From positions 1 to 64,000 of the forward strand of contig NZ_JAENIM010000008.1 of assembly GCF_016595495.1 (NCBI RefSeq): 64,000 nt of DNA, in the 5' to 3' direction. The notes beneath the pieces are model-generated. The model was given only the letters and a program-made list of their open reading frames with translations. It did not search any database and was not told the DNA's origin. The stretch is from Persicirhabdus sediminis. GTDB taxonomy: Bacteria; Verrucomicrobiota; Verrucomicrobiia; Verrucomicrobiales; Akkermansiaceae. The position numbers were made by a program, and so were the translations under genes. Numbering within the stretch: the first letter of the stretch is position 1; every line of letters starts with the position of its first letter. Of the stretch, positions 1-4,480 are shown piece after piece.

Positions 1-30
1 TCTTCGCTATGTCTTCTACGTGGTTGTGTC

Positions 31-417
31 ATGGTCTCTATGATTTCTTGGTATCAATTAGGAGACCTGCTGGCTAGTATTTTGGGGAAGTTCAGATTGT
101 TGACGAGTGAGGACATTGACGCATTGCCCGCGACACTTACTGCATCGCAACTATTTAATAAATTTTGGCAGATGGATCTCCCAGACCCGCCAATCTTTAT
201 TTACCCCTCGGCAACGCCCAATTATCAATACATTGCATTTGCTGATCCAGCTGACGATGAGGCGTTATTCAACGAGGAGTATGATAATGTGAAGATCGTG
301 GCTATCGCTCATCTTAGCGACGATCAAAGTGTAAGATCAATAGTTTGGGGCGCAGATCCTACATCGATCCCGGAACATCCTGCCTCAGATCCATTTCAAG
401 AAGCTTCCAAAGATTAG
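31..417 (+). CDS. hypothetical protein, possible first cassette gene
   Basis: I do not recognise this 128-residue protein. It is acidic, has no signal peptide or membrane span, and contains a compact alpha/beta-looking body followed by a Pro/Asp-rich tail. The first ATG is at 31, but the frame stays open back to base 1, so the true start could lie outside the window. The stop is followed 6 bases later by ATAACAAG, the same word that follows the next two genes. That fits an integron gene cassette whose attC begins there. Size and acidity would suit an immunity or small effector protein, but nothing in the sequence proves that. Confidence 0.6.
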   Translation: MVSMISWYQLGDLLASILGKFRLLTSEDIDALPATLTASQLFNKFWQMDLPDPPIFIYPSATPNYQYIAFADPADDEALFNEEYDNVKIVAIAHLSDDQSVRSIVWGADPTSIPEHPASDPFQEASKD

Positions 418-552: not shown

Positions 553-716
553 GGTGAAGCCTATCTGACTAACTGCTAGCTATTTGATTGACTGATTAGA
601 GCGATCTAGCAAACTTCATTAGGTTCACTGAGAGCTGAAAACTTTCAGTTACTAACCAAGGACACAGCCCGCCATCATTATGAGAACGATCCATCAAGCT
701 AAACATGCCGCCCGCC
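553..716. other. non-coding spacer within the cassette patch
   Basis: About 160 bases without a credible gene between the antisense remnant and the candidate attC at 717. Several CTAAC or TTAGC words occur (for example ACTAACTG and ACTAACCA) and could be debris of older recombination sites, but none pairs convincingly with a partner. I see no promoter that I would defend. Confidence 0.4.
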
Positions 717-808
717 AGCTAACCCTAAGCCATGATCGTAGTCTCGGCTAATCGGATTTCCGAAATGTTAAATCCACCACCAATTACTACGAACCAATAC
801 TGTTAGCC
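717..808 (+). other. weak candidate attC site
   Basis: The segment starts with AGCTAAC and ends with GTTAGCC, which are inverted copies of each other. A second short inverted pair (CGTAGT on the left, ACTACG on the right) lies inside. Total length of 92 bases is in the range of attC sites. The right end lies 8 bases before the ATG of the lipoprotein gene at 817, the spacing expected of a cassette gene. The internal arms pair less well than those of the site at 1483-1608, so this is a tentative call. Confidence 0.35.
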
Positions 809-816
809 CAAGAAAA

Positions 817-1488
817 ATGCTTATGCGATATAACGCCATTTTAATCGCGCTCTTGATCACTGCATGTGCGCCAGAGGAGAATGAACAGGCCTCCCCCGAC
901 ACCGAATCAACAACTATGGAATTCATCGAATCTGAACTGCTTGGAGATGTCACGCTGTGGCTTTCGAAGTCCGGAGAATTATATCGTGAGGACGAGCTGA
1001 AGGCGCTTTCGAAGACGATCACCGCAGATCAGGCGGTTGAGCTTTACACCTACCTCCGAGACAACGGTGAGCGGTGGGAATCCGAGTGGAGAGAGTCATT
1101 CATTTCTCTGTTTCCGCAGTCGGAATCGAAGCTTCCGGAGATCGCCGAAGCCGATCGTTGGCAGACCGAAGTTTTCGAAGTCATAGCTGCCGGCGAGCTC
1201 CAAGGCGTAAAAGACTTCATCCAGGAGACAGGGATTTTGGAGAACATCAAGTTTGATCCTGCGGACACGTATCAGGAAGGGCAGTCGATGGGATTCACCG
1301 ATAAGGTTGATTACATCCCATTCGATTTTTTCCCGGTTCAGGTAGAGAACGAGGATGGTGATTATCCAGTTTCCTACGCCCGCGAGAAGGGGCTGACTGA
1401 GATTGCGGACTACCTTCAGTCTGTAATCGACGAGCTGAGCCAGCGATACCGAAATGCCTACGAAGCCGGACGCAAATCCAAGGGCTAA
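817..1488 (+). CDS. lipoprotein, probable integron cassette gene
   Basis: A 223-residue predicted lipoprotein of unknown function. Residues 1-17 form a lipoprotein signal peptide ending in a lipobox (LLITAC), so Cys17 should be lipidated and the protein anchored in a membrane facing the periplasm. The mature part is strongly acidic and rich in Glu and Asp. A pattern around residues 120-210 (a helix pair, then DYPVSYAREKG, then a helix) recalls ankyrin-type repeats, but I cannot confirm this. The gene starts 8 bases after a GTTAGCC box and its TAA stop lies inside the left box of a strong attC site. It lacks the AGCTGG and CTAGC words common in host genes, which suggests transfer. Confidence 0.75.
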   Translation: MLMRYNAILIALLITACAPEENEQASPDTESTTMEFIESELLGDVTLWLSKSGELYREDELKALSKTITADQAVELYTYLRDNGERWESEWRESFISLFPQSESKLPEIAEADRWQTEVFEVIAAGELQGVKDFIQETGILENIKFDPADTYQEGQSMGFTDKVDYIPFDFFPVQVENEDGDYPVSYAREKGLTEIADYLQSVIDELSQRYRNAYEAGRKSKG

Positions 1489-1608
1489 CAAGACGTCGCT
1501 CTCAGCACCTGCCCCGCCGCGAGTTCAAATCCGTTATGACCATTCAACCTTCAACCCGCAGTCGAAGCCTATCCCTCGGGCAGGTGTGAGAGGACTGCGA
1601 CGTTAGCT
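1483..1608 (+). other. attC-like integron recombination site
   Basis: The ends are GGCTAAC (1483-1489) and GTTAGCT (1602-1608), an inverted pair matching the attC outer boxes (RYYYAAC and GTTRRRY). Inside, the left arm reads GTCGC then CTCAGCACCTGCCC. The right arm, read in reverse complement, gives GTCGC then CTCACACCTGCCC. The arms therefore pair over a long stem with one unpaired G on one side, which is the extrahelical-base architecture that integron integrases recognise in folded attC sites. At 126 bases it has a typical length. It overlaps the stop codon of the upstream gene and ends 10 bases before the next ATG, the standard cassette layout. Confidence 0.75.
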
Positions 1609-2542: not shown

Positions 2543-2716
2543 TCACCCCATCATATCCACCAGCTCCCGTAGTACCGAGAGCGTGATGCATTTGTTACTG
2601 TTGCTCCAGCAGATGTGGTTTTGCATCGCTGGTGTGGCCTGTTTGGAGTGGAAGCTGCCGTCTTGCAGAATGGCGTATTTTTCCACCTCGGGGTAATTTT
2701 CTAGCCAGATCTCCAG
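2543..2716 (-). pseudogene. C-terminal remnant of a HAD-like protein (copy 2)
   Basis: On the minus strand 57 codons run from 2716 to a TGA at 2543-2545, preceded in frame by a stop codon and with no start. The peptide begins with EIWLENYPEVEKYAILQD and ends LRELVDMMG. The WL..xPEVxxYxILxD pattern resembles the C-terminal part of HAD-fold domains found in Swiss-army-knife RNA-repair-type proteins, but this is recognition by eye. It is a fragment truncated at its upstream end near the 3' end of the DUF420 gene. A second, shorter copy lies at 438-544, also antisense and also downstream of a cassette-like gene. Confidence 0.5.
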
Positions 2717-3299: not shown

Positions 3300-3475
3300 G
3301 CGTTTGAGATAGCGTTACTGGCAGATGATGCAAGTATTTCCTGCGCTTTGATGCACAGTAGGTGGGTGAGACCATTCTGCCAGCTAGCTAACTGGAATAG
3401 TTTTGATTTTGAGTTGAGAAAAATGGCGAGTTCAGCAGGCTGAGTTGATTATGAGAAACTTCGGTTTTGATTGGC

Positions 3476-4187
3476 GCTTATCCACGGGTTGCGCTCGCTG
3501 GTGCTCGTCGACCCGCGGCTAAAGTCCATTAGCCCTTCGGGCTAGCTAGCTGGCGTGATTTTTCTAGCTTGTAGCGAGTCAGCTAGATGACTTGAGCTGG
3601 CTAGCTTTGTCTCGCCCCTTTGGGGCTGCAGGTTTGTTGGGGGCGTTCTCCCTGACCTGCGTTAGGCCTTCAGCCTTGCCTTGGTCAGGGCTGTAGTTTC
3701 TCGGTCCTTTGGACCTTTTTTCGATAATGCAAGAATCTAGGGGAAGAGTCTGGCTAGATAATATCCTAAGCTGAGTGCTTTATCGTAGCTGGTTTTTCCA
3801 TTTTCCCTGCGGGAAATACGATGTTTGGGGTGCTTATCCACGGGTTGCACTCGCTGGGGCTCGTTGACCCGCGGCTAAAGTCCATTAGCCCTTCGGGCTA
3901 GCTAGCTGGGGTGATTTTTCTAGCTTGTAGCGAGTCAGCTAGATGACTTGAGCTGGCTAGCTTTGTCTCGCCCCTTTGGGGCTGCAGGTTTGTTGGGGGC
4001 GTTCTCCCTGACCTGCGCTAGGCCTTCAGCCTTGCCTTGGTCAGGGCTGTAGTTTCTCGGTCCTTTGGACCTTTTTTCGATAATGCAAAAATCTAGGGGA
4101 AGGGGTGGCTAGATAATATCCTAAGCTCAGTGCTTTATCGTAGCTGGGTTTTCCATTTTCCCTGCGGGAAATACGATGTTTGGGGCG
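3476..4187. repeat. 356-bp tandem repeat, two full copies
   Basis: The copies run from 3476 to 3831 and from 3832 to 4187 with an exact 356-base period and only scattered substitutions and small indels. Each contains CCACGGGTTGC, GACCCGCGGCTAAAGT, a string of small GC hairpins built as arm-TTT or arm-TTC-arm (TAGCCCTTCGGGCTA, GCCCCTTTGGGGC, GGTCCTTTGGACC, TCCCTGCGGGA) and a longer CCTGACC/GGTCAGG pair. No reading frame runs through the unit, so it is non-coding. The stacked hairpins recall REP-type repetitive extragenic elements. No transposase lies nearby. Confidence 0.9.
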
Positions 4188-4372
4188 GCTATCCACGGGT
4201 TGCACTCGCTGGGGCTCGTCGACCCGTGGCTAAAGTCCATTAGCCCTTCGGGCTAGCTAGCTGGCGTGATTTTTCTAGCTGGCGTTTGGGTGAGCTAGGG
4301 GGGAGCAGGAAGTCTCGGGCTAGCTAGCTGGCGTGATTTTTCTAGCTTGGGTGTGGGTGAGCTGGGGGAAAA
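4188..4372. repeat. partial third copy of the 356-bp repeat plus a mini-duplication
   Basis: From 4188 the beginning of the 356-bp unit repeats again (ATCCACGGGTTGCACTCGC through GCTAGCTAGCTGGCGTG) and stops near 4280. The short piece GGGCTAGCTAGCTGGCGTGA with its TTTTTCTAGCT tail then occurs a further time at 4317-4347. This looks like unequal exchange or slippage within the array. The sequence is non-coding. Confidence 0.75.
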
Positions 4373-4381
4373 TGGTGCCGT

Positions 4382-4480
4382 GAGCCGATTAAATGTGCTA
4401 ATCGGCTCAGAATTGGCTGTATTTTGAGCCGATTAGCGATTTTAATCGGCTCATAATTGGCGTTTTTTTGAGCCGATTAG
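4382..4480. repeat. 44-bp tandem hairpin repeat
   Basis: GAGCCGATTA begins at 4382, 4426 and 4470, an exact 44-base period. In the first two units it is followed 6 or 7 bases later by its inverted copy TAATCGGCTC, so each unit can fold into a strong hairpin (4382-4408 and 4426-4452). The third unit keeps only the left arm. A spacer of AATTGGC plus a T-rich stretch separates the units. The array lies just downstream of the membrane-protein gene at 4532-5095. On that gene's strand the hairpins are not followed by a U-tract, so they are not a plain terminator. Confidence 0.85.

Follow-up and report, generated by a model that had tools for sequence, protein, structure and literature searches.

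Small cassette arrays on dispersed attI copies, probably served in trans by one integron integrase, in Persicirhabdus sediminis

In the usual description, an integron consists of a single integrase with a single docking site and a single array of cassettes, of which the first are the best expressed. The sedentary chromosomal integrons of Vibrio and of the Verrucomicrobiota, a phylum in which integrons were already reported (PMC8618304), resemble the system of Persicirhabdus sediminis in their intI family, an attI beside intI, long and uniform attC sites, and mostly unknown genes; in itself, an integron with attC sites in this genome is ordinary and of a kind already known. The difference lies in the number of attI sites: a typical integron has a single one (although this is not strictly defining), whereas this genome has about 30, and in the literature searched we found no published description of a natural multi-attI genome. 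According to the authors of IntegronFinder, a single attI close to the integrase is the typical arrangement, and attI sites outside class 1 go undetected by their program (PMC9024848), so satellite attI copies would have been overlooked. CALIN likewise hold attC cassettes without a neighbouring intI, but they are defined by attC alone, whereas the clusters discussed here begin at an attI copy. The delta-attI cassettes of class 1 and class 2 integrons (PMC12901181) also use an attI within arrays as a recombination site; however, they are single resistance cassettes that carry a piece of attI in place of attC, unlike the repeated module of about 235 bp that lies upstream of arrays some 30 times in this genome. 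Insertion at attG or other secondary sites, finally, is alike in that one integrase serves scattered chromosomal cassettes, as we propose here, but there the insertion points are unrelated genomic sites and here they would be attI copies.

The window, i.e. the whole stretch of 64,000 nucleotides that was analysed, begins at the first base of contig C8, so the contig holds no sequence farther left. At 1483-1608 (+) it carries a genuine full-length integron attC between two captured genes. A sequence-only reading had called this stretch attC-like because of its inverted ends, an imperfect stem with a one-base bulge, an overlap with the upstream stop codon, and a gap of 10 bases to the next start, all of which are present: the end boxes are GGCTAAC (R'', 1483-1489) and GTTAGCT (R', 1602-1608); CTCAGCACCTGCCC (1501-1514) pairs with GGGCAGGTGTGAG (1579-1591) in an inner stem with one extrahelical base (L'', about 1495-1514; L', about 1579-1601); the left box contains the stop TAA (1486-1488) of the ORF at 817-1488; and the next ATG, at 1619, lies 10 bases past the site. 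The boxes are mutually complementary except for one G-T pair, and compared with RYYYAAC/GTTRRRY their AAC/GTT core is exact with one consensus letter off per side. Folding reaches -28.4 kcal/mol on the bottom strand (z -3.46, with 0 of 200 shuffles doing as well) and only -22.5 kcal/mol on the top strand (z -1.78; 10 of 200). A covariance model was trained on 17 attC sites collected from other contigs of this genome, the window site being excluded. It recognised 1483-1608 from end to end with 84.9 bits (E 9.2e-21) and had no second match in the 64-kb window; the attC call is safe. Compensatory changes occur at 14 of the 19 stem pairs in the alignment of these 17 sites, and relatives of the window attC with 86-88% identity are found on contigs C19, C40, and C14. 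An Rfam scan of the window gave one tRNA only, the attC family being unmatched. The loops of most attC sites of the genome (1536-1589 in the window) hold a top-strand frame of about 11-23 codons from ATG to stop; these short frames, which at first sight resemble conserved peptides, end shortly before the next cassette gene and are missing from a few attC types.

Upstream of this site the window opens with an ORF at 31-417 (+; 128 aa counted from the first ATG, with the frame still open where the contig begins), a probable cassette gene directly followed by a truncated attC (421-437, +). By comparison with the R''-L'' part of a full attC, this site has kept no more than its left part (GCATAACAAGTCGGAG), up to a junction. 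Next comes, on the minus strand (438-546), the 3' fragment of a putative HAD-hydrolase-like frame (our own reading), a repeat whose other copies start at an attC right end. The module follows at 568-806: its upstream half (568-676, +) is common to most satellite attI copies, and its right part is a satellite attI copy (677-804, +) with the recombination point after G802 (AATACTG^TTAGCC) and 77% identity to the intI-linked attI on C16, which places it among the more diverged copies. Cassette gene 1 (817-1488, +; 223 aa, with a lipoprotein-like start by eye and no Pfam family) has its ATG 14 nt past the attI crossover, and on the far side of the attC lies cassette gene 2 (1619-2461, +; 280 aa). 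The two genes are orphans, as the sequence-only reading had said; the second has a weak Imm26-domain match only and no relatives among the 116 other family genomes searched, so the pair does not form a fixed syntenic block in these genomes. Cassette 2 is closed by a probable degenerate attC (2466-2541, +) with the left box GATAAC and a right box, GCTCACC, that no longer matches; its bottom-strand hairpin has z -4.72 (0 of 200 shuffles as good) and scores under the covariance-model threshold. The HAD-like 3' fragment reappears at 2544-2713 (-) as the right end of the array, with ordinary chromosomal genes beyond. This array thus has one clear and one degenerate attC on a contig that lacks intI, where CALIN stands for two or more attC without intI.

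The assembly is a draft of 47 contigs, which limits both the integrase count and the order of most arrays; within the reach of the searches there is one intact integron integrase, and a second may be hidden in an assembly gap. An integrase profile search had no match on C8, and the best integron integrase match is on another contig (C16:404-1897, 497 aa; 344.9 bits with TIGR02249, whose cut-off is 265). It aligns to the V. cholerae integrase structure 2A3V across the catalytic motifs and the integron-specific region. The sequence-only reading had proposed to look for an intI with this patch III region and for more attC sites, and the genome has both, with about 67 attC sites by the covariance model and several short contigs dense in them (C4, C6, C10, C18, C19, C28, and C40). 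The intI-linked attI is at C16 92-220. Overlaps of 95, 468, and 399 bases chain the left end of C16 to C19, C19 to C40, and C40 to C4, respectively, and the first attC of the intI-linked array (C19:4275-4399) is on the expected side of intI. The same reading had seen the left edge of the window as the array of a chromosomal integron. The attC site, the intact intI elsewhere in the genome, and the many further attC sites agree with this; as assembled, however, the edge is not the tail of the intI-attached array but a small satellite array on its own attI copy. In a subgroup of these integrases, which includes the C16 protein and those of loci L130, L133, L138, L139, and L140, the usual integrase is preceded by a Trp-rich N-terminal extension (about 80 aa or more) to which no Pfam family corresponds.

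With the 325 bases adjoining intI as query, a search of the whole genome, complemented by an HMM search, gave 33 matches in about 30 separate places (677-818 in the window) on C8, C9, C14, C15, C16, C21, C31, C39, C41, C42, C45, and C46, nearly all of them without an integrase. Most matches end where the query has its crossover, or just past it. Among the 29 copies with an intact right end the crossover G is present in 27 (the exceptions are C41 and C46:71301); conservation amounts to 72-100% in the 20 columns that lead up to it, drops to 34-69% in the five that come after TT, and beyond these is near background except for a short A-rich leader. Conservation that ends at the crossover is the product expected of recombination between attI and attC, since the bases past the G come from the cassette. 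An ORF starts 0-60 nt past the crossover in all 29 copies (at most 30 nt in 25). In 19 of them a same-strand attC follows, either ahead of the next attI or no more than 4 kb away, at 33 bits or more in 16 cases, and the 10 satellites with no recognisable attC downstream imply that many arrays may be frozen. The order attI-gene-attC-gene-attI recurs in C14, C15, and C46; C15 has seven good attI copies in 18 kb and joins the right end of C46 (540-base overlap), where another copy sits. Most satellites share an upstream segment of about 100 bases that was not found beside intI, which points to a founder module that multiplied.

Repeats of a genome's own attI region were sought in four genomes: this one (G000), G020 from the same family, G028 (complete, in a single contig, from another family of the order), and G031 (a draft from the genus of G028). 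In G028 the intI-linked attI has its crossover near C1:2,975,796, and a second copy (93% over 108 bases) lies 240 kb away at 2,735,046, where it starts its own attC array, with sites downstream on the same strand and no intI match. As far as sequence can tell, the satellite attI is not an assembly accident, since it also occurs in this single-contig genome. About nine satellites of its own attI are present in G031; most of them break off at the crossover or a few bases from it, and a gene starts next. By eye, the G031 copies also hold a short frame (MTASTDIT..). G020 has a single attI, so multiple attI recurs but is not universal. The motif AATA..ACTG^TT next to the crossover is common to the attI of these genomes and the remainder differs, so that one old habit and repeated events are both possible. 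The module of P. sediminis gave only short matches (22-35 bases), in two of the 116 other family genomes, and an exact 21-base attI pattern had no match in the public genome collection. Of 37 sampled relatives, 12 have an integron integrase that exceeds the cut-off, and the attC model gave arrays beside many of these 12.

The reading that we favour, and hold to be fairly probable, is that small cassette arrays sit on dispersed attI copies with one integrase serving them in trans. The window feature would then be an attC in a two-cassette satellite array of the chromosomal integron, on its own attI (677-804) and without an adjoining integrase. The C16 integrase would act in trans by joining the folded attC bottom strand at G^TT to any of about 30 attI copies, and cassettes would be captured, excised, and moved at many chromosomal places rather than one. 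From the sequence patterns we infer that IntI may act in this way on the satellite attI and that cassettes may still be moving there, that each module may also aid expression, and by what route attI may have spread. On this last point, the attI module may itself be mobile, as a gene-less attI cassette that IntI puts into attC ends, an idea that we entertain only tentatively. In C21 and C46 the HAD-like fragment directly adjoins a full attC and is itself followed by the next attI, and the stretch between the two crossover points resembles such a gene-less cassette because it leads from the attC right end through the HAD fragment and attI to the next crossover. If the module were mobile, the integron would multiply its own docking sites, and hence the places of capture and expression.

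Several other explanations have to be weighed against satellite arrays served in trans. For 1483-1608 itself, the long hairpin right after a stop codon could belong to a transcription terminator or a chance inverted repeat, but with a 67-site family that agrees in sequence and structure, with compensatory changes and conserved R boxes, this is extremely improbable, and it is refuted by the covariance result. The satellites could be remnants of several complete integrons whose intI has decayed, and degraded integrons were proposed in the literature as a source of CALIN (PMC9024848). One place fits this well: C42:60120-60426 keeps the intI leader and attI (80% over query 12-321), adjoins what by eye is the start of a broken intI, and has six attC sites downstream, so that ordinary decay is supported for the C42 array. 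As a general account we judge decay to be quite unlikely, because the intI leader is missing from the other copies, most of which have one defined upstream segment not found beside intI; moreover, the cuts in the G031 copies fall about equally far from intI, and thirty independent losses at one breakpoint are hard to expect.

The intermixing of modules, about 70-92% identical, between contigs would also suit a repeat that was dispersed through homologous recombination or by some transposable process, no longer works as an attI, and has fossil cassettes beside it. We regard this as unlikely, since conservation is higher in the last 20 bases before the crossover than in the middle part of the module and the crossover breakpoint recurs in two other genomes. 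Alternatively, the modules could be the 3' sites of attI-type cassettes in which gene and attI move as a unit, as in the delta-attI cassettes, which function with IntI1 (PMC12901181); parts of C15, C31, and C39 do read gene-attI-gene-attI without attC. However, the spacer that separates the module from the stop codon before it ranges from 3 to about 290 nt, and what precedes several modules is an attC or the HAD-like fragment instead of a gene, which makes this explanation very unlikely.

About thirty docking sites would mean about thirty 'first positions', which would alter the view of cassette capture, expression, and silent storage. Likewise, some of the orphan clusters (CALIN) that are now viewed as degraded integrons may stem from attI copies that current software ignores.

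Within the attI runs a reading frame of 23 codons (MKTINLAKHPARQL...DRSLG; window 680-751, C16 92-220, and other copies) that is intact in 18 copies. A conserved peptide was considered and rejected, as purifying selection was not seen (270 synonymous versus 778 other single changes, with an expected synonymous share of 0.25). By analogy, the frame may have a role like that of ORF-11 of attI1, in which substitutions matter little (PMC8876359). An attC-like hairpin in the module was likewise rejected (1 of 19 pairs compensated), and a scan of the module for a sigma-70-like promoter found none. Among the genes of the array contigs, an IS110-type transposase-like gene (by eye; locus L013 1180-2330, on C19) lies within the main cassette array near an attC, and a cassette gene of the C42 array (locus L017 2880-3660) resembles, by eye, a phosphotransferase of the APH/choline-kinase type. 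Array contigs (e.g. the ends of C14 and C15) end in transposase-like or other repeats that are common to other contig ends and mark assembly breaks; the left end of the window (1-60) is a repeat common to the ends of C39, C31, and C12. Farther into the window, at 3440-4480, lie intergenic direct repeats of about 350 bp that are rich in GCTAGCTAGCTGG.
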